From the IMG/VR virus record IMGVR_UViG_3300043437_000537, positions 1 through 28,952 of that record: a DNA stretch of 28,952 bases; one strand, 5' to 3'. Positions 13,198-24,991 of the stretch are shown piece after piece. The first letter of the stretch is position 1; the number at the start of each line of letters is the position of its first letter. A model generated the notes under the pieces. That model made no database searches. It was not told the DNA's origin and saw nothing but the letters and a program-made list of their open reading frames with translations. Origin of the DNA: a virus. A program made the position numbers and the translations under genes.

Positions 13198-14532
13198 TTA
13201 GTTATTTAGTCCTTGGAAACCTCCAATGGTGATTCCGTTTAATTGTTGTACTGGTACTCCATCATTACCTAAAAATACAGGGTGAGGTGCATATGCTCCA
13301 GGGAAATCTGCAGTCCCACCACTAAAGTCTCCTAAGATATCTAAAGTGTATGCGTATTGTTGGTTAGCTGAAAATCCTGTAAACCAATATGTTGGTGTTG
13401 GTGTTGGTGTAACTGATGCAGTTCCTGTTGGTGTTGGTGTTTTAGTTTGTGTTGGTGTTACCGCAGGTGTTCCTGTTTGTGTTGGTGTATTGGTTGGCGT
13501 TTTAGTTTGTGTTGGGGTATTAGTAGGTGTTTTAGTTACGGTTGCAGTATTTGTTGGTGTTTTAGTTACGGTTGCAGTATTTGTTGGTGTTTGAGTATTT
13601 GTAGGTGTCTGAGTATTTGTTTGAGTTGGTGTTTGAGTATTTGTAGGTGTCTGAGTATTTGTCTGAGTATTTGTTTGAGTTGGCGTAGGTGTTTTTGTGT
13701 TAGTTGGTGTTTGAGTATTTGTATTAGTTGGTGTTTGAGTCTGTGTGGGTGTTTTAGTTGTAGTTACAGATGGTGTCGGAGTATTACTTGCGGTATTTGT
13801 TGGAGTTACAGTTGGAGTAGGTGTTGGTAATGGGCATGAACCTATTGAAACATAATAACCATTTCCTTGAACAACAACTACTTCTTTTGCGCATACAATT
13901 GTTGTGCTGTATGGTTGGACAGGTACGTTAAATGTAAATCCATTACAATCTCTACCTACAAATGTGGTTCCGTCAGTTCCACCATTTAACTCATATGTTT
14001 TACACACATTAGGTGTATTACTTGGTGTTACAGATATAGTTGGTGTTACCGTTGGAGTGCTAGTTTGAGTCGCAGTATTAGATGGTGTATTAGTTTGAGT
14101 TGCAGTATTACTTGGTGTTTGAGTTTTAGTTACAGTATTAGTTGGGGTCGCAGTGTTAGTCGGAGTATTAGTTGGAGTACTTGTTGTAGTACTAGTTGGT
14201 GTTTTGGTAACCGTCGCAGTATTGGTTGGAGTGTTAGTTGGTGTTTTAGTTACTGTAGGTGTGTTAGTTTGAGTACTCGTTACTGTTGGTGTTGGTGTCA
14301 CAACTGCTTGACAAGTTATACAATCACCATAATCGACTGACATAGTCAAGACTTTGTCAATACCTGTTGAAGGTTCCGCATTATCAATAATATCGTAACA
14401 TCCAGGGGTTGTACCTCCTGTAAATGTTAAATAATAATTCCCGTTGACCGCTGGTAATGATGAACTATCAAAATCAACTAGTATCGATGGACCTCCAACG
14501 CACGGACCTATAAGATATGTAACTAAAGCCAT
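13198..14532 (-). CDS. Pro/Thr-repeat virion surface protein with three folded segments
   Basis: A 444-residue protein. Segment 1 (about 1-75) is beta-rich and contains four Cys (PCVGGPS, PGCYD, DCITC). A TPTxT linker follows (about 76-167). Segment 2 (about 170-234) is another Cys-containing domain (NVCKTYELNGG, GRDCNGF, IVCAKEVVV, GSCPLP). A longer TPTQT/TPTNT linker (about 235-382) leads to a C-terminal beta domain ending ITIGGFQGLNN. The linkers are near-perfect 5-6 residue repeats such as TPTNTQTPTQT. Such architecture suits an extended surface fibre or decoration protein; Thr-rich linkers may be glycosylated. It has no signal peptide, as expected for a virion protein. A TATTTAT motif lies 13 bases before the ATG. 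The role is inferred. Confidence 0.75.
   Translation of the reverse strand: MALVTYLIGPCVGGPSILVDFDSSSLPAVNGNYYLTFTGGTTPGCYDIIDNAEPSTGIDKVLTMSVDYGDCITCQAVVTPTPTVTSTQTNTPTVTKTPTNTPTNTATVTKTPTSTTTSTPTNTPTNTATPTNTVTKTQTPSNTATQTNTPSNTATQTSTPTVTPTISVTPSNTPNVCKTYELNGGTDGTTFVGRDCNGFTFNVPVQPYSTTIVCAKEVVVVQGNGYYVSIGSCPLPTPTPTVTPTNTASNTPTPSVTTTKTPTQTQTPTNTNTQTPTNTKTPTPTQTNTQTNTQTPTNTQTPTQTNTQTPTNTQTPTNTATVTKTPTNTATVTKTPTNTPTQTKTPTNTPTQTGTPAVTPTQTKTPTPTGTASVTPTPTPTYWFTGFSANQQYAYTLDILGDFSGGTADFPGAYAPHPVFLGNDGVPVQQLNGITIGGFQGLNN
13387..13829. repeat. Tandem repeats encoding the long Pro/Thr linker
   Basis: The plus strand shows repeating GTTGGTGTTTTAGTT-like and GTATTTGTTGGTGTTTGAGT-like units of about 15-30 bases, low in C. 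They encode TPTNT/TPTQT on the minus strand. One 30-base unit ending TTAGTTACGGTTGCAGTATT is nearly exact in two adjacent copies near 13530-13585. Confidence 0.85.
14030..14307. repeat. Tandem repeats encoding the first Pro/Thr linker
   Basis: A shorter array of the same kind as 13387-13829, with units such as GTATTAGTTGGAGT and GTTTGAGTTGCAGTATTA. The two arrays could recombine and delete the middle folded segment. Confidence 0.8.
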
Positions 14533-16519: not shown

Positions 16520-18535
16520 ATGAACGACTTAATGGACGACGACGACAAAATGATGAACAAAAAAACTAAATCATCTGCAGAATCTAACACACCTGTATTG
16601 GACAACTTCAGTAGAGATTTGATTAAACTAGCTGAAGCCGGCAAACTTGACCCCGTTATTGGTCGTGACCGAGAGATTTTAAGGATTGCTCAAATCCTTT
16701 CTCGTAGAAAGAAAAATAACCCGATTATCCTCGGAGAACCTGGTTGTGGTAAAACCGCACTTGTTGAAGGTTTGGCAATTAAGATTGTAAATGGCGATTG
16801 TCCTCGTAATTTGGTGGATAAACGTATTGTCAATCTTGACCTAACTTCAGTTGTTGCTGGTACAAAATACCGTGGTCAATTTGAAGAACGTATGAAGGTG
16901 ATTATCGAAGAACTTCAGGCAAACCCAAACATCATCGTATTCATCGACGAGATTCACACCTTGGTAGGTTCAGGAAACTCTTCAGGTTCGATGGATGGTT
17001 CAAACATCTTCAAACCCGCATTGGCACGTGGGGAAGTTCAATGTATCGGAGCAACTACATTAGATGAGTTCCGTAAGAACATTGAAAAAGATGGGGCATT
17101 GGAGCGTCGTTTCCAAAAGGTAATTGTTGAACCATCATCAGTTGAAGAAACAATTCAAATCCTTAAGAATGTTCGTGATAAATACGAAGATTTCCACAAG
17201 GTGAATTACAGCGATGAGGTAATCGAGACTTGTGTTAAGTTGGCAGACCGTTATATCACGGACCGTGAGTTCCCTGATAAAGCGTTTGACATCTTGGATG
17301 AGGTTGGGGCAAGAATGCAGACCGAGTTAAAGACTCCTGAAGCAATTGAGGAGTTGAAGAAGAAGGCCGCAGAAATCAAAGTTCAAAAAATGGAAGTAGT
17401 TAAAAAACAAAACTACGAACAAGCGGCAGAACTTAGAGACAAAGAGAAAAAGTTGTTGGTTAAATTGGACCAAGAAAAAATTAAGTTTGAGGAAAAGTTG
17501 TCCAAAGAAAAACAACTCATCTTATTGGAACATGTTTATGATGTTGTATCAAACATGACAAAAATCCCTGTAAGTAAAATGAGTGTGGATGACACCAAAG
17601 CTTTGTTGGACTTGGACAAAACTTTGATTGACAAAGTTATCGGTCAAAACAATGCGGTAGTTAAGATTGCAAAAGCAATCAAAAGAAATCGTTTGGGTAT
17701 CAAAGACCCTAATCGTCCAATCGGTTCATTCGTGTTCTTGGGTTCAACAGGTGTTGGTAAGACCTATTTGGCAAAACAATTGGCAAAAGAAATGTTCGGT
17801 TCTGAAGATGCTCTCATTCGTGTCGACATGTCTGAGTACCAAGAGAAACACACAGTATCCAAATTGGTTGGAGCCCCTCCAGGATACGTAGGTTATGAAG
17901 AAGGTGGATTGTTAACTGAGAAAGTTAAAAACAAACCTTACTCTGTAATCCTATTCGATGAAGTCGAAAAAGCTCACAAAGATGTGTTCACCATCCTACT
18001 TCAAATTTTGGATGATGGTCACGTAACCGACAGTTTGGGTCGTAAGATTAACTTCAAGAATACCTTGATTATCTTGACATCAAACTTGGGGGTTAAAAAA
18101 CTACAAGACTTTGGAACAGGTATTGGTTTCTCAAGTAATTCATATAGTAATGAAGAAGCTAAGAAACAATTGTTAATGAAGGAAATGAAAAACTTCTTCT
18201 CACCTGAGTTCATTAATCGTATTGATGACACAGTTGTATTCAACTCGTTGGGTAAAGAAGACATCAAGAAGATTACAGACATCGAATTGAAGAAGTTGAT
18301 GACTCGTCTTGTAGACATGAAGTACAATATCACCTATGACGAATCTTTGGTTGAATACTTGGCAAAGATTGGATACGATGAATTGTACGGAGCTCGTCCA
18401 TTGAAAAGAGCTATTCAGGATAAGGTCGAAGACCTATTGTCTGAAGAAGTTCTAACTGGTAAGATGATTGAGGGTAAAACCTATCTCATCAAAGTAGTAG
18501 ATGAAGAAGTAATTATCCAAAAGAAAGGACGTTAA
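16520..18535 (+). CDS. ClpC-like AAA+ unfoldase lacking the N-domain
   Basis: A 671-residue Hsp100 protein with two intact ATPase modules. D1 has Walker A GEPGCGKT (72-79), Walker B VFIDEIHTL (D143/E144) and the arginine finger GALERRF. A short ClpC-type M-domain (about 285-340) includes a UVR-like helix pair, VVKKQNYEQAAELRDKEKKL. D2 has Walker A GSTGVGKT (about 408), Walker B VILFDEVEKAH, and the loop GTGIGFSS (about 534-540), whose IGF tripeptide is the usual ClpP contact. Bacterial ClpC proteins are about 820-850 residues; here the N-terminal substrate/adaptor domain is replaced by an acidic leader (MNDLMDDDDK). It therefore probably works with host ClpP but not with N-domain adaptors. 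A strong terminator follows the stop. The partner choice is inference. Confidence 0.95.
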   Translation: MNDLMDDDDKMMNKKTKSSAESNTPVLDNFSRDLIKLAEAGKLDPVIGRDREILRIAQILSRRKKNNPIILGEPGCGKTALVEGLAIKIVNGDCPRNLVDKRIVNLDLTSVVAGTKYRGQFEERMKVIIEELQANPNIIVFIDEIHTLVGSGNSSGSMDGSNIFKPALARGEVQCIGATTLDEFRKNIEKDGALERRFQKVIVEPSSVEETIQILKNVRDKYEDFHKVNYSDEVIETCVKLADRYITDREFPDKAFDILDEVGARMQTELKTPEAIEELKKKAAEIKVQKMEVVKKQNYEQAAELRDKEKKLLVKLDQEKIKFEEKLSKEKQLILLEHVYDVVSNMTKIPVSKMSVDDTKALLDLDKTLIDKVIGQNNAVVKIAKAIKRNRLGIKDPNRPIGSFVFLGSTGVGKTYLAKQLAKEMFGSEDALIRVDMSEYQEKHTVSKLVGAPPGYVGYEEGGLLTEKVKNKPYSVILFDEVEKAHKDVFTILLQILDDGHVTDSLGRKINFKNTLIILTSNLGVKKLQDFGTGIGFSSNSYSNEEAKKQLLMKEMKNFFSPEFINRIDDTVVFNSLGKEDIKKITDIELKKLMTRLVDMKYNITYDESLVEYLAKIGYDELYGARPLKRAIQDKVEDLLSEEVLTGKMIEGKTYLIKVVDEEVIIQKKGR

Positions 18536-19424: not shown

Positions 19425-20180
19425 ATGAAAGGTTTAATCAGGAGAATTATTGGGGAAACTGTAACAAATAAAGAAGTAATTTGTGACAAATGTGGATGGT
19501 CATGGGATATTTCTGATGGTGGTGATGACTTATATACGTGCCACAAGTGTGGTCACGATAACACACCAAAATCTCAATCTAATTTAAACAGATTATTAGA
19601 AAAATTCAAAAATAATTTTCCTGAAGAATTAAAATCTAAAGTTGATGTTATTGAAAAGTTTGTTGTGAACTACATCCAAGACCACAACTTTACCGTTAAG
19701 TTTCTTAACTCATGTTCAACTGGATTTGCTGGTGTTAGAACCAAAGACCAAATAATAATATGTTCTCCAATGAATATGAAAACTATTGGTGATTTTATTT
19801 ATACAATTTTTCATGAGATAAGACATGAAGAACAAATGACAAACCTTAAATTAGAAAACCCACTAACAGGTGATTTAGAAGATTTTGAAGAATTATCAAG
19901 AAATTACTGGGATTTAGAATTAGATGCCGATAGATTTGCAAAAGAAATGATTGCAAAATTAGTAATTAAATTAAACATACCAATTGATGTTGCCAAAACA
20001 CAATTCACATTATCTCTATACATTGAAAACTATCCTTTTGCATCAAAAATGGTGATGATGTCTTTACAACAAATTGTAAACGGAATTAAAGACATAAAAA
20101 AATCGGGTGGAGAATTTTCTGATATTCAAGACCACCCGATGATTAAAAGACATTTAGATAAGTTAGAAAACTTTATTTAA
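19425..20180 (+). CDS. Zinc-ribbon HExxH metalloprotease, possibly packaged in the head
   Basis: A 251-residue protein. A zinc ribbon CDKCGW...CHKCGH uses Cys20, 23, 39 and 42. The zincin motif HEIRH (His130, Glu131, His134) is followed about 30 residues later by WDLELDADRFAKEM, where Glu165 (or Asp169) would be the third zinc ligand, as in gluzincins of the ImmA/M48-like type. The N-terminus MKGLIRRIIGE ends in IGE at 9-11, fitting the gp21 site, so the ribbon would start the mature protein. A protease ejected with the DNA could act on host proteins; the target is unknown. It shares 4 bases with the convergent M20 peptidase gene. Metal-site assignment is by motif; delivery into the host is inference. 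Confidence 0.85.
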   Translation: MKGLIRRIIGETVTNKEVICDKCGWSWDISDGGDDLYTCHKCGHDNTPKSQSNLNRLLEKFKNNFPEELKSKVDVIEKFVVNYIQDHNFTVKFLNSCSTGFAGVRTKDQIIICSPMNMKTIGDFIYTIFHEIRHEEQMTNLKLENPLTGDLEDFEELSRNYWDLELDADRFAKEMIAKLVIKLNIPIDVAKTQFTLSLYIENYPFASKMVMMSLQQIVNGIKDIKKSGGEFSDIQDHPMIKRHLDKLENFI

Positions 20181-21016
20181 AAAACCCATTTGGATTTCCA
20201 ACCATGTTCAACCATTTCTTTATAGTGTAATTTATGACCAAGTTTATCAATCATTTTCTTACCCATGTCGATACCATTAATTACGTCTTCAACAACGACG
20301 TATTCATGCTTTGTGTGGTATTGGTAGTATCCAATTGAGAAGTTAATACAAGAGAAGTCAAACTTACCTCTTAACGCATATACGTCAGTGTAGGGGTGAA
20401 CCATGTATCTCATTCTGTTTCCCATCCCTTCAGTTAATACCTCATCACAAGCATCAAAGAATTCAGTTTCTCTATCAAACAAAACTTGACCAAAACATTT
20501 TTCTGTAATCATCCAGTTCTCAGGTGCATCAAATTGAATCCCATAACCAACATTTTCAAAGAAGGTTGAATCGGCTTTCATGGAACCATGACATCCTGTT
20601 TCTTCAGATACAAAGAATGCTGCCTTAACATAAGGTAATTCTTTTAATAGTGTTAGACATGCAAATACGCCACATTTATCATCACCACCAATACCTGTTG
20701 GAGTACCATCATTATCGTATGCCTTATAAGACAATTTAATTTCTTTTTGTGCGTTTGGTAACATTTCCTCACGAATATTAATATCGTTAAGTCCGTGTAC
20801 CGTATCCGTATGTGAAATTACACATGGGAAATAAAAACCTTCAGGAAGTTCTTTGGATTCTTGTTTTGTTGCATAGACGTTCTTATATTCATCTACGTAG
20901 TGTTCAATATTATTTTCAGTTAACCAATTAACCAAAAATGCAACCATTTTGTCTTCGTGATACGTTGCGGTAGGCACGCTCAAAACGGCTTTAAGTAATT
21001 CTAAATTTTGTTCCAT
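20177..21016 (-). CDS. M20-family metallopeptidase (peptidase T / M42-like)
   Basis: A 279-residue di-metal peptidase. Expected ligands and catalytic residues are present: SHTDTVHG (His69, Asp71), GGDDKCG (Asp112 or Asp113 bridging), SEETGCHGS (Glu138 catalytic, Glu139), FDAPEN (Asp163) and YHTKHEYV (His237). The family has aminopeptidases, tripeptidases and deacylases acting in the cytoplasm; the substrate is unknown. Most members are about 350-400 residues with a dimerisation lid; this one is short, so the lid is reduced or absent. The N-terminus has no gp21-like site. A host-like promoter (TTTG, 20 bases, TATATTTG) lies just before the ATG. It could recycle peptides during infection, possibly those made by the ClpC-like/ClpP system; that is inference. 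Confidence 0.88.
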   Translation of the reverse strand: MEQNLELLKAVLSVPTATYHEDKMVAFLVNWLTENNIEHYVDEYKNVYATKQESKELPEGFYFPCVISHTDTVHGLNDINIREEMLPNAQKEIKLSYKAYDNDGTPTGIGGDDKCGVFACLTLLKELPYVKAAFFVSEETGCHGSMKADSTFFENVGYGIQFDAPENWMITEKCFGQVLFDRETEFFDACDEVLTEGMGNRMRYMVHPYTDVYALRGKFDFSCINFSIGYYQYHTKHEYVVVEDVINGIDMGKKMIDKLGHKLHYKEMVEHGWKSKWVF

Positions 21017-21020
21017 AGAG

Positions 21021-21052
21021 CAAATATAGAAAATTATTTACACTTCACCAAA
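21021..21052 (-). promoter_or_regulatory. Host-type (Bacteroidetes sigma) promoter for the M20 peptidase gene
   Basis: The coding strand reads TTTG, a 20-base spacer, then TATATTTG, matching the Bacteroidetes TTTG/TAnnTTTG consensus with permitted spacing. The -7 box ends 4 bases before the ATG, so the mRNA would be nearly leaderless. Confidence 0.6.
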
Positions 21053-22888
21053 TAAATCAAATAATTCTGGTTGATATAATAAATTATTGAATTGTTCTTC
21101 ATTAAATTTACGAGTAATAGCCCCTAATGGTCCGCCTATTTCAACAACAACTCGAATGTTGTCTTTGTCAAAATTTTTAATTCTGAATTTTAACGATTTA
21201 TCTTTTGGTAATTCATACACCTTACCTATATCATATTTAGATAATATTTTTTTTCTAAATTCCAAAAACTCCGTGACATTTACATCCTCATCTAATTTTT
21301 CAATAATTGAATCTAGTTGTCTTTCAACTTCGTTGTTGAATGAATCACTATCAAAATTTTCATAATCCTGATATTCATATTGGTCTTCAGCCCATCCACC
21401 AATACTACCACCATTGTTTTCAACAATTTGGTTAAATAATGAAATAACATCACTTTTATTAATTCCAAGTCTTGCAGACCACATTAGTAGATTTGCCGGT
21501 GTTGTCACGATTTCATTGTAGCTTCTTTTAAGTGTAAATCCTGCAGATTCTAAAACGTCGTTAATTTCTTTTTCAATAGATTCTCTGGCAGTAACACTCA
21601 TTTCTCTATTTTTTTCAACAAAATAATCACTTAGGATATTATCGGTTTCTCTTTCAAATAAATCTAATAATGTTGTAGATAACTCTTGTCTATATTCCTC
21701 ACTATTTAAATTAAACTCTTTTGATGATATTAAAATTTCCCCAATTTGTTTTAATTTTTCTCTATTTTCATCATTCAAATCACCAAAAACAATATATCCT
21801 TCTTTCCAATCCTCTTCAACAGTATAAGAATCAATAAATTCATAATCACTATAACTTGAACTTATTGAGTTCATGAACCACATATCATCTTCACTTACAT
21901 CAAAATTTTTAAAGAATTTTTCATCATCACCAAAATCAATTACAATGGCACTTTGACCTAATATGTCTGAAACCTTAACCTGAAGAATTGCATCATCAGA
22001 ATCTTCCAATTCACGGGAATTAATTTTACCTTTTGAGAATTCTCTTAATTTTTTAATAAATTCACCAATACCAAGTAAATCGTCAATAAGTTCACTTTGG
22101 TTTGGAAACGATTCTCTTAAATTTTCTATAGAAATATTTCGGTCCTGAGCATCATATACTTCGGTTTGTCTTTGACTTTCGTTTCGATATAGTGCAAGTT
22201 TATTATTGGTTTTTTTATTTAAGAAATAATATAAGTTTCCATCTCTAAAATATTTATCAAAATAACCAGGGTTTCCAGTTTGTGTTGTACACCATTTTGT
22301 ATTAGCACCATAATAACATGATGCAGCATGTGATTTAGGTCTAACAACTAAAACATCATTATCTTCATAAATCTTATCGGCCTGAGTTTTAATCTCTCTT
22401 TCAATTTCCCTTTGAGTTTTTCTGGCATCAATAGTATTCATTAACTTTTTAATAAATTGTGGGTTTTCATATTGATTGATGTCTTTTGGTGAACGAGCAA
22501 TACCTTCAATATTTGGAACAACATATTCATTGTTCATGTCGTTTCTAAATGCAGTTTCCGCAGTCCAAATATCATCTTCAGTGATTCTATTAACATTTGC
22601 ATGGAACCAAGGAATGATTGTTCCAAATAAATTTTGCAAAGCTTCTCCCTGTTGAACATTCAATCCACCTCTTTCACCCGCCAATTCAGGTATAACTTTT
22701 TCAAGTTTTTTCGCAATATATTCAACGTATTTGTAACTTGTTGGGTCAGAATTTAAAACCCTATCAATAAATGGACCATCATACTCAAACCTTTGTTTAA
22801 GTCGCTTTGCAACATCTTCCTTTTTACCTTCAACTATAATCACGGGATATTTTTTACTATAAATACAAGTTTTGTTTGGAATATTCAT
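21038..22888 (-). CDS. WCTT-motif phage protein, paralogue A (putative packaged protein)
   Basis: From the ATG at 22886-22888 the protein has 616 residues; a GTG ten codons upstream is also open but less likely. It starts MNIPNKTCIYSKKYPVIIVE-GKKEDVAKRLKQRF, and the segment from IVE aligns with the N-terminus of the gene at 23456. The shared core is NDVLVVRPKSHAASCYYGAN followed by TKWCTTQTGNPGYFDKYF, and then LYYFLNKKTNNKLALY. The remaining 400 residues are acidic and helical, without recognised domains. The motif YGxxT(K/R)WCTT is one I have seen in many unannotated phage proteins, with no known function. The invariant Cys may be catalytic or structural. It is divergent from its paralogue with the tmRNA between them. 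Confidence 0.78.
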   Translation of the reverse strand: MNIPNKTCIYSKKYPVIIVEGKKEDVAKRLKQRFEYDGPFIDRVLNSDPTSYKYVEYIAKKLEKVIPELAGERGGLNVQQGEALQNLFGTIIPWFHANVNRITEDDIWTAETAFRNDMNNEYVVPNIEGIARSPKDINQYENPQFIKKLMNTIDARKTQREIEREIKTQADKIYEDNDVLVVRPKSHAASCYYGANTKWCTTQTGNPGYFDKYFRDGNLYYFLNKKTNNKLALYRNESQRQTEVYDAQDRNISIENLRESFPNQSELIDDLLGIGEFIKKLREFSKGKINSRELEDSDDAILQVKVSDILGQSAIVIDFGDDEKFFKNFDVSEDDMWFMNSISSSYSDYEFIDSYTVEEDWKEGYIVFGDLNDENREKLKQIGEILISSKEFNLNSEEYRQELSTTLLDLFERETDNILSDYFVEKNREMSVTARESIEKEINDVLESAGFTLKRSYNEIVTTPANLLMWSARLGINKSDVISLFNQIVENNGGSIGGWAEDQYEYQDYENFDSDSFNNEVERQLDSIIEKLDEDVNVTEFLEFRKKILSKYDIGKVYELPKDKSLKFRIKNFDKDNIRVVVEIGGPLGAITRKFNEEQFNNLLYQPELFDLFGEV

Positions 22889-22918
22889 ATTTATACTTAC
22901 CTTTGTATAACAAATCAC

Positions 22919-23009: not shown

Positions 23010-23404
23010 GGGGGTACACTGGTATCGATTGACATAGTTGGGGATACGTGGCACGCAGTGAAAAGTTTCCTATCACTTAAATCTACGGAGATAAAAATTA
23101 AACGGCAACGTTTTAAACAAAATGGCAGCAATCGGATTAGTTCGTGAAGATGCTACGGTTACAGCCTAAGCGATTAGGAAAAACCATCGGGTCGAGAAGA
23201 CATTAACCCAGGAACAGAAGTCTTTGTAAGGTGTGGTTTCTATCTTAAAAGGAACAAGTGGAGGATTAGTTCTCAGTAAACCGAACCACTTTAAAATAAG
23301 GGAATTGTGAAATTTCGGAACATTAGCTAAATGTTGTCCTAAGCGTGTAGTCATTTATTGTCGAGATGGGCAAGACGAGGGTTCGAATCCCTCTACCTCC
23401 ACCA
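23010..23404 (+). ncRNA. ssrA: tmRNA (one-piece, complete with encoded CCA)
   Basis: This 395-base RNA rescues stalled ribosomes. The acceptor stem pairs GGGGGTA (23010-23016) with TACCTCC (23394-23400, one G-U) and ends in ACCA. The T arm is perfect: GAGGG-TTCGAAT-CCCTC. The 3' half carries the family-like GCGTGTAG, and CACGC (23052-23056) pairs with GCGTG (23344-23348) as P2. A pseudoknot before the reading frame forms from AGTGA/TCACT and TTTCC/GGAGA. A 12-base A-rich spacer then leads to the likely resume codon GGC at 23104, and the frame closes with TAA at 23167-23169. It lies between two divergent paralogous genes and is followed by a terminator. The host should have its own copy, so this one probably changes tagging or supports late infection; that is inference. 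Confidence 0.96.
23104..23169 (+). other. tmRNA tag reading frame
   Basis: The frame encodes 21 residues starting GNVLNKMAAI and ending in REDATVTA before TAA. It is the only frame open over this stretch, and it sits at the expected distance after the pseudoknot. Typical tags are about 8-15 residues ending in ALAA or similar; this one is longer and lacks LAA. The resume codon could be a nearby codon in the same frame. Confidence 0.7.
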
Positions 23405-23407
23405 TTA

Positions 23408-23435
23408 AACCTCATCGAAAGATGGGGTTTTTTTT
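23408..23435 (+). terminator. Rho-independent terminator after tmRNA
   Basis: AACCTCATC pairs with GATGGGGTT (one T-G) around a GAAA tetraloop and is followed by an 8-base T run. Confidence 0.9.
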
Positions 23436-23455: not shown

Positions 23456-24991
23456 ATGAGATTAACACCAATTCTTATTGCTGAAGGGCGTAAAGAAGAT
23501 TTACGTAAAAAATATGAACAAAAATTTTCAGCAAACCAAGACAATCTTGATACAATAGATTATGCGTTGGGTCATCCTTTTTTAACTCAAACAAATTTTA
23601 AATATGGTGATTTTTTATTAAAAAATTTAAATCCAAATGCTTCAGTTGAAGAAGTTATAGATAGTGTTGAATTGATTAGAGATTTTGACCGTTTTAAAGA
23701 ATCGTTAGAAGAAAAAGACATCAATAAATACGACCTTGATGGATTACAAGGTGTGATTGATAACCATAAATCCAATTCTAAATCACATTTAAAAAAGATT
23801 GATTCTTCAGGTGCTAAAAAAATATATGAAGATTCTAATATTTTAATTGTAAAACCTTTAACGTTTGAAGCATCTTGTAAATATGGTTCAGGAACCAGAT
23901 GGTGTACAACCATGGCAAATTCACCAACTTATTTCAATCAATATACATCAGGTCATGACCAAGCATTATATTATGTGATTTTGAAAAAATTCGATAGGAA
24001 TAATAAGTTCTACAAACTAGCCATTCACAAAAAACCTGGTGAAGAGACATGGTACGATTCAACCGATGAGAGAATGACCGACAGAGAAAAAGATGTATTT
24101 AATCTTGGAGCACCAAAAGTTATTGAAACAATTAGAAATGATTGGGAAAAAGAATTAGAAAAAAACCAATCACATATTTTTGATAAATTTTTTGATTGGG
24201 AAAATTATTCGTTTTTTAACATCAGTAAAGAACTTAGAACTAATCAATATATTGGATTAGAATTCTATCAGTCAGAAATAACTAACTCTGGTGAAAAAGA
24301 AGGTAAAGTTACTTTAAATATATCCTTAAATGAAGACAATATTGATAGTTATTTTTTATTGATTTCATATGGTATTGGGTTTAGAGATTCAGGGTTCGGT
24401 ACCAATTCAAAAGTAGTTAAATTTGTTGTTTCATTTACACCCAATGACAATTTCCCTGATGATTATGGGATTGATTTAGAAGACGGATATAGAGAATTGA
24501 TTTATGGATATGATTATTTTACAAATCGCAATAATTCAGGTCAAGACGTATTTCACACGTTTTGTGAAGACATTAAAAAATGGGTAATATATTCTTTAAA
24601 AAACAATACTGAATTCATGTCTAAAATACATGGTGGTAAATCCGTATGGTCTCCAAATAGGTCAAGTTATGGTTATACATTTAAAGAAAACAAAGGTATG
24701 GTTAAAAAATTGGTCGATTATTTGGATTCAGGAAAAGAAGGAACAAAATTAGATTTCTTGGTTGATATAAAATCATTAGAGAAAAAAGAAATTAAGGGTA
24801 AACCATATTATTCAAGACCTGGTCAAAATGATTGGCATATCGCATCGGCATGGAGAGGACAACAGAGTGGTTTCTTTAATTCAGCCAAACTTGCGGGAAT
24901 ATTAGATTACGATAAAAAAGGTAATCAATTCTATTTGAAAAAAGGTCCAAACTTTGATAAGTTTAAAGAAGGACAACTTGAAGCTCTTTAA
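23456..24991 (+). CDS. WCTT-motif phage protein, paralogue B (putative packaged protein)
   Basis: The ATG at 23456 gives 511 residues; longer starts would run into the tmRNA and its terminator. The N-terminus MRLTPILIAE-GRKEDLRKKYE has IAE at 8-10, the same triplet and distance as the T4 capsid-targeting peptide MKTYQEFIAE. The paralogue core is SNILIVKPLTFEASCKYGSG followed by TRWCTTMANSPTYFNQYTSG, then ALYYVILKKF and a helical acidic middle. The C-terminal part differs from paralogue A: KIHGGKSVWSPNRSSYGYTF and a last domain KPYYSRPGQNDWHIASAWRG. No known enzyme motif, signal peptide or membrane segment is present. Function is unknown; packaging and ejection are inferred. It shares 4 bases with the convergent membrane-protein gene. 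Confidence 0.82.
   Translation: MRLTPILIAEGRKEDLRKKYEQKFSANQDNLDTIDYALGHPFLTQTNFKYGDFLLKNLNPNASVEEVIDSVELIRDFDRFKESLEEKDINKYDLDGLQGVIDNHKSNSKSHLKKIDSSGAKKIYEDSNILIVKPLTFEASCKYGSGTRWCTTMANSPTYFNQYTSGHDQALYYVILKKFDRNNKFYKLAIHKKPGEETWYDSTDERMTDREKDVFNLGAPKVIETIRNDWEKELEKNQSHIFDKFFDWENYSFFNISKELRTNQYIGLEFYQSEITNSGEKEGKVTLNISLNEDNIDSYFLLISYGIGFRDSGFGTNSKVVKFVVSFTPNDNFPDDYGIDLEDGYRELIYGYDYFTNRNNSGQDVFHTFCEDIKKWVIYSLKNNTEFMSKIHGGKSVWSPNRSSYGYTFKENKGMVKKLVDYLDSGKEGTKLDFLVDIKSLEKKEIKGKPYYSRPGQNDWHIASAWRGQQSGFFNSAKLAGILDYDKKGNQFYLKKGPNFDKFKEGQLEAL

Follow-up and report, generated by a model that had tools for sequence, protein, structure and literature searches.

A conserved, long non-LAA tmRNA tag in T4-like phages and its possible reading by a phage ClpC-like unfoldase

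The tmRNAs of sampled Bacteroidota carry short tags of 9-12 residues with [A/L/M]AA-type ends, for example GENNYALAA, GEENYALAA, and ANDYSYAMAA. The tag of Mesoplasma florum is read by that organism's own Lon, apart from the E. coli proteases, and in E. coli a tag ending in LVA is roughly as destabilising as one ending in LAA (PMC9097571). PMC9004378 gives a tmRNA for about 2.3% of phage genomes, and viral tmRNAs are mentioned in PMC7162821 and PMC11915505. Here we describe a phage tmRNA tag family for which no published description was found in the literature searched, a body of work in which subscription journals are sparsely covered. The starting point was a 28,952-base IMG/VR fragment (the window) of a T4-like phage from a lake, with a terminase and an S77 prohead protease.

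A search with cmscan returned a single, full-length RF00023 match in the window (86.2 bits against a gathering cut-off of 47 bits, E 2.3e-32). The acceptor stem, T arm, and encoded CCA are all visible, and the claim of a complete tmRNA made in an earlier sequence-only reading therefore stands. The acceptor stem GGGGGUA/UACCUCC is paired at all positions and includes G3-U70, a pair also found in 80 of 81 relatives. An intrinsic terminator lies directly 3' of the gene, and similar hairpins follow most of the relatives' tmRNAs. ARAGORN did not detect the tmRNA in the window; it found 16 of the 81 relatives' tmRNAs, missed 65, and misread several tags. Because this standard finder misses most members, the family is probably under-reported.

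The covariance-model match allowed the resume codon to be placed by homology (Table 1). Bacteroidota tmRNAs with a readable tag resume at nt 90-103, mostly 94-98, usually after an AAAC- or AAAT-like sequence, and in the window tmRNA the GGC codon is nt 95. Translation from this codon gives GNVLNKMAAIGLVREDATVTA, 21 residues that end V-T-A and then a stop. The remaining two frames give ATF and QRFKQNGSNRISS (13 codons), each followed by a stop, and neither is the homologous frame; the 21-residue frame is fixed by the homologous resume codon and by codon-level conservation among relatives. The sequence-only reading had described the only open frame, of about 21 residues; its length and its lack of an LAA end were borne out, and "only" was a slight overstatement given the 13-codon alternative. 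With VTA at its C-terminus, the window tag departs from the canonical ssrA degron, which has an LAA-type end (ALAA/AMAA).

Table 1. Features in the window and in related or compared records.
Feature	Record	Position	Strand	Basis
tmRNA (ssrA) gene, one-piece form, CCA encoded	window	23010-23404	+	Rfam RF00023, 86.2 bits
Acceptor stem 5' strand GGGGGUA, contains G3 of the G3-U70 alanine identity pair	window	23010-23016	+	sequence
Tag reading frame: resume codon GGC (23104-23106), GNVLNKMAAIGLVREDATVTA, stop TAA (23167-23169)	window	23104-23169	+	sequence, resume position, codon-level conservation
T arm and 3' acceptor strand UACCUCC with ACCA	window	23376-23404	+	cmscan alignment
Intrinsic terminator CCTCATC-GAAA-GATGGGG, then 8 T	window	23410-23435	+	sequence
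ClpC-like AAA+ unfoldase, 671 aa, without N domain; both Walker A/B pairs, GYVG pore loop, IGF ClpP-docking loop	window	16520-18535	+	Pfam AAA_2, ClpB_D2-small
M20/PepT-like metallopeptidase (weak), between clpC and tmRNA	window	20177-21016	-	Pfam PF01546, E 9e-5, below curated cut-off
Possible metallopeptidase, beside clpC	window	19425-20180	+	zinc-ribbon-like start, HExxH-like motif (FHEIRHE)
Paralogous flanking protein	window	21038-22918	-	phrog_17056 or phrog_28193
Paralogous flanking protein	window	23456-24991	+	phrog_17056 or phrog_28193
444-aa repeat protein	window	13198-14532	-	
Group I introns in tmRNA T loop	L111; L133; L135; L170; L207	12856-13082; 7035-7258; 1942-2158; 12727-12953; 1356-1568		Rfam RF00028
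GOLLD giant RNA	L133; L135	5677-6083; 1-240		Rfam RF02032, 288 and 194 bits
tmRNA, likely tag GVNNADYESAGFTAEDFAQMDGESLYHGSERKPAAV	LR756508.1 (L460)	92434-92880		
Second copy, 112 bases, tRNA-like domain only	LR756508.1 (L462)	414804-414915		

We then asked how widely the tag is shared. A tmRNA was present in 10 of 46 records reached via the terminase, most of these records being fragments, and a 15-base signature from the 3' part of the tmRNA recovered at least 120 stretches in IMG/VR. The signature and terminase relatives gave at least 112 loci with a readable tag and at least 58 distinct tags. Adding loci fetched with ClpC brought the IMG/VR relatives to at least 82 distinct tags of 20-22 residues, a count that leaves out six more loci with variant tags (for example, with a GK or D start). 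The consensus of the 82 distinct tags among the matches listed is GNVLNKMAALGLIRTEEVTVA. None of these 82 ends in LAA and no relative with an ALAA-type tag was found, while 79 of the 82 among the matches listed have Ala at the C-terminus, mostly as V-A. In a first set of 48 distinct 21-residue tags among the matches listed, G1 and G11 are invariant and L12 and A21 are each present in 46. The contrast with the ALAA-type tags of Bacteroidota, previously drawn from the window alone, is thus real and extends to the related phages. The close relative L129 has an identical tag peptide but a TGA stop; its 107-kb contig encodes ClpP and a ClpC that is 99% identical to that of the window.

To evaluate selection on the tag, 88 distinct tag genes were joined in a minimum spanning tree, and identical base changes placed at random served as the null. 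The tree holds 145 synonymous and 137 nonsynonymous changes, a synonymous share of 0.514 versus 0.289 ± 0.027 under the null, and third codon positions take 54% of the changes versus 34% expected. The dN/dS ratio of the 88 distinct tag genes among the matches listed is about 0.38. This synonymous excess supports a tag that is translated, functional, and conserved as a peptide. The comparisons likewise support the assignment of the long non-LAA tag to a large phage family in which purifying selection maintains it.

The relatives are all metagenomic, and many are partial. No tmRNA was among the matches when the 3' signature was searched in 84,980 species genomes, and tblastn with the consensus tag matched none of 50,697 named phage records, a search in which the short query lowers sensitivity. 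Host-type GE-NYALAA tags were found in only 12 contigs of IMG/VR. A Bacteroidota host is favoured by the resume context, the first tag residues, and an RNA similarity search in which Bacteroidota came top; the scores were weak, and the host identity is for that reason unproven. Mimicry of the tag by phage proteins was considered and rejected, as the tag profile matched only tmRNAs among 10,131 phage ORFs. The profile had no match in the PDB. One phage protein with a V-A C-terminus was observed versus 2.4 expected, counts that give no power. Group I introns interrupt the T loop of some related tmRNAs, a known form of tmRNA gene, and GOLLD RNA shares contigs with two tmRNAs (Table 1). The 484-kb phage LR756508.1 has a tmRNA whose likely tag differs from this family, together with a second copy of the tRNA-like domain.

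The ClpC-like unfoldase singled out in the sequence-only reading proved to be tied to the tmRNA across the family. Its best solved relative is ClpC (6em8), to which the alignment begins at ClpC residue 145; two AAA+ modules, Walker motifs, pore loops, and an IGF/L-type docking loop are intact, and the N-terminal adaptor-binding domain is missing. GYVG was found in 76 of 76 ClpC proteins and an IGF, VGF, or LGF docking loop in 65, a simple pattern having failed on the other 11. Fetching by ClpC alone yielded 80 IMG/VR loci; 18 of these end too soon to judge, and all 62 with enough sequence have a tmRNA downstream on the same strand. Conversely, when loci were fetched by the tmRNA, clpC was upstream on the same strand in all 33 listed loci with at least 7 kb of upstream sequence, at a median distance of 3.7 kb (range 2.4-7.8 kb), and clpC was present in 26 of 26 large tmRNA-bearing records among the matches listed. 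We rejected this co-occurrence as proof of function because core-genome linkage could produce the same pattern. The M20-like gene between clpC and the tmRNA (NCBIfam PepT-like at 1e-5, likewise below cut-off) is as constant as clpC, being found in 33 of the same 33 loci, and the linkage could therefore owe something to shared ancestry in a slowly rearranging core. Two huge phages whose ClpC is 57-59% identical, LR745206 and LR756502, gave no tmRNA match under strict filters. The clpC gene lies in separated pieces in G104, G119, and L143, with two of the breaks close to one profile position (about 224); introns or homing insertions may be the cause.

Other parts of a degradation pathway are found more sparsely. 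ClpP is encoded in 9 and full-length SmpB in 3 of the 26 larger tmRNA-bearing contigs among the matches listed. The ClpP proteins examined show the Ser/His/Asp motifs (GMAASMG, a His motif, and Asp). ClpP was not found in several large records with a long stretch after clpC, such as G101, G112, and G123, so not every member of the family has its own protease, and the unfoldase might act alone as a chaperone. The tmRNA is flanked by two paralogous proteins with no assigned function, and elsewhere the window encodes a 444-residue protein made mostly of Thr-Pro-Thr-Asn/Gln repeats with folded ends on either side.

We propose that the host charges the phage tmRNA with alanine and that the RNA, assisted by SmpB (that of the host in most of these phages), would free stalled ribosomes in the infected cell and append Ala and the 21-residue tag to the incomplete polypeptide. 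Recognition by a protein would explain why the tag is conserved as a peptide, and the likeliest candidate for this role is the phage ClpC-like unfoldase encoded a few kilobases upstream, which would use no N-domain adaptor and would pass tagged chains to phage ClpP where encoded and otherwise to host ClpP. The outcome would be viral disposal, with possible recycling of amino acids, apart from ClpXP-type recognition by the host. The linkage and the intact motifs lend strong circumstantial support to ClpC as the destination of tagged products. We give a probability of roughly 0.5 to this proposal as a whole, which joins a functional tmRNA in the window (expression, alanylation, SmpB use, and tagging) to a phage-specific tag whose reader is the phage ClpC, working with a ClpP of phage or host origin.

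The main rival holds that the tag is a divergent degron for host ClpXP, ClpAP, or Lon, with the phage tmRNA topping up host trans-translation and ClpC doing an unrelated job. The prevalence of V-A ends fits this account, since such ends can be strong degrons, as LVA is in E. coli (PMC9097571); the absence of LAA alone is accordingly weak evidence against host ClpX, which may still read tags ending in VAA or AVA. SmpB is missing from most of these phages and no ClpP is seen in about two thirds of the large records, so host factors would be used anyway. However, host-type tags have only 9-12 residues, a C-terminal LAA-like degron does not need the conserved G1, V/T3, K6, M/L7, G11, L12, and R14, and the clpC-tmRNA linkage is left unexplained. 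We consider this rival unlikely, though a serious contender.

A tag that is no degron at all, and that protects truncated phage proteins or redirects them to the virion, the membrane, or a chaperone-only ClpC, would agree with the lack of LAA in the 82 tags among the matches listed and with the phages in which ClpC has no detectable ClpP. That account is improbable in light of the small hydrophobic C-terminal residues typical of AAA+ degrons, the IGF/VGF ClpP-docking loop kept by most ClpC copies, and the lack of a tag-like segment in any of the 10,131 ORFs. Ribosome release is the essential tmRNA function in some bacteria, and rescue alone might matter here, with an incidental, drifting tag; but the codon pattern of purifying selection contradicts drift, and positions are invariant across tags from different phage subgroups, which makes this account very improbable.

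That more than 100 related phages carry a version of the tag near their own unfoldase suggests a private viral route of protein disposal. A broader proposal, tentative and a little short of an even bet, is that a large T4-like aquatic phage clade has private trans-translation made up of a tmRNA with a conserved 21-22-residue tag, a ClpC reader, and sometimes ClpP and SmpB, leading to a viral protease route. A peptide-conserved tag family tied to a phage unfoldase makes the purpose of a phage tmRNA directly testable. If the proposal is true, a virus owns a separate channel for protein disposal, and a new tag-protease pair would be at hand for controlled protein degradation.

Among known systems, the tmRNAs of the mycobacteriophage Bxz1 group, Bacillus phage G (PMC4131195), and Melnitz (PMC9004378) are likewise phage-encoded, and the likely phage G tag, AKLNITNNELQVA, also ends VA; no tag family in common with the lake-phage tags was found, the Melnitz gene is two-piece, and a conserved association with a phage Clp unfoldase is not described in the accessible text of either paper. 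The huge phages that encode tmRNA and SmpB (PMC7162821) similarly bring their own ribosome rescue set, but the accessible text of that study does not discuss tags or Clp, and it identified its tmRNAs with ARAGORN, a program that fails to detect most of the lake-phage family. The unfoldase shares with ClpC (6em8) two AAA+ domains, the pore loop, and the ClpP-docking loop, and differs in lacking the N domain, where adaptors bind. Mesoplasma florum (PMC9097571) offers a cognate protease outside the ClpX rule, shown there and proposed for the phages, although that protease is Lon rather than Clp, the system is bacterial, and its tag is unrelated in sequence. With the tmRNAs of Bacteroidota (RF00023) the phage RNA has in common its structure, G3-U70, resumption at a GGC codon near nt 95-96, and first residues G-N/E/D, but where the Bacteroidota tag has 9-12 residues and ends in ALAA, AMAA, or similar, the phage tag has 21 and ends V-T-A.
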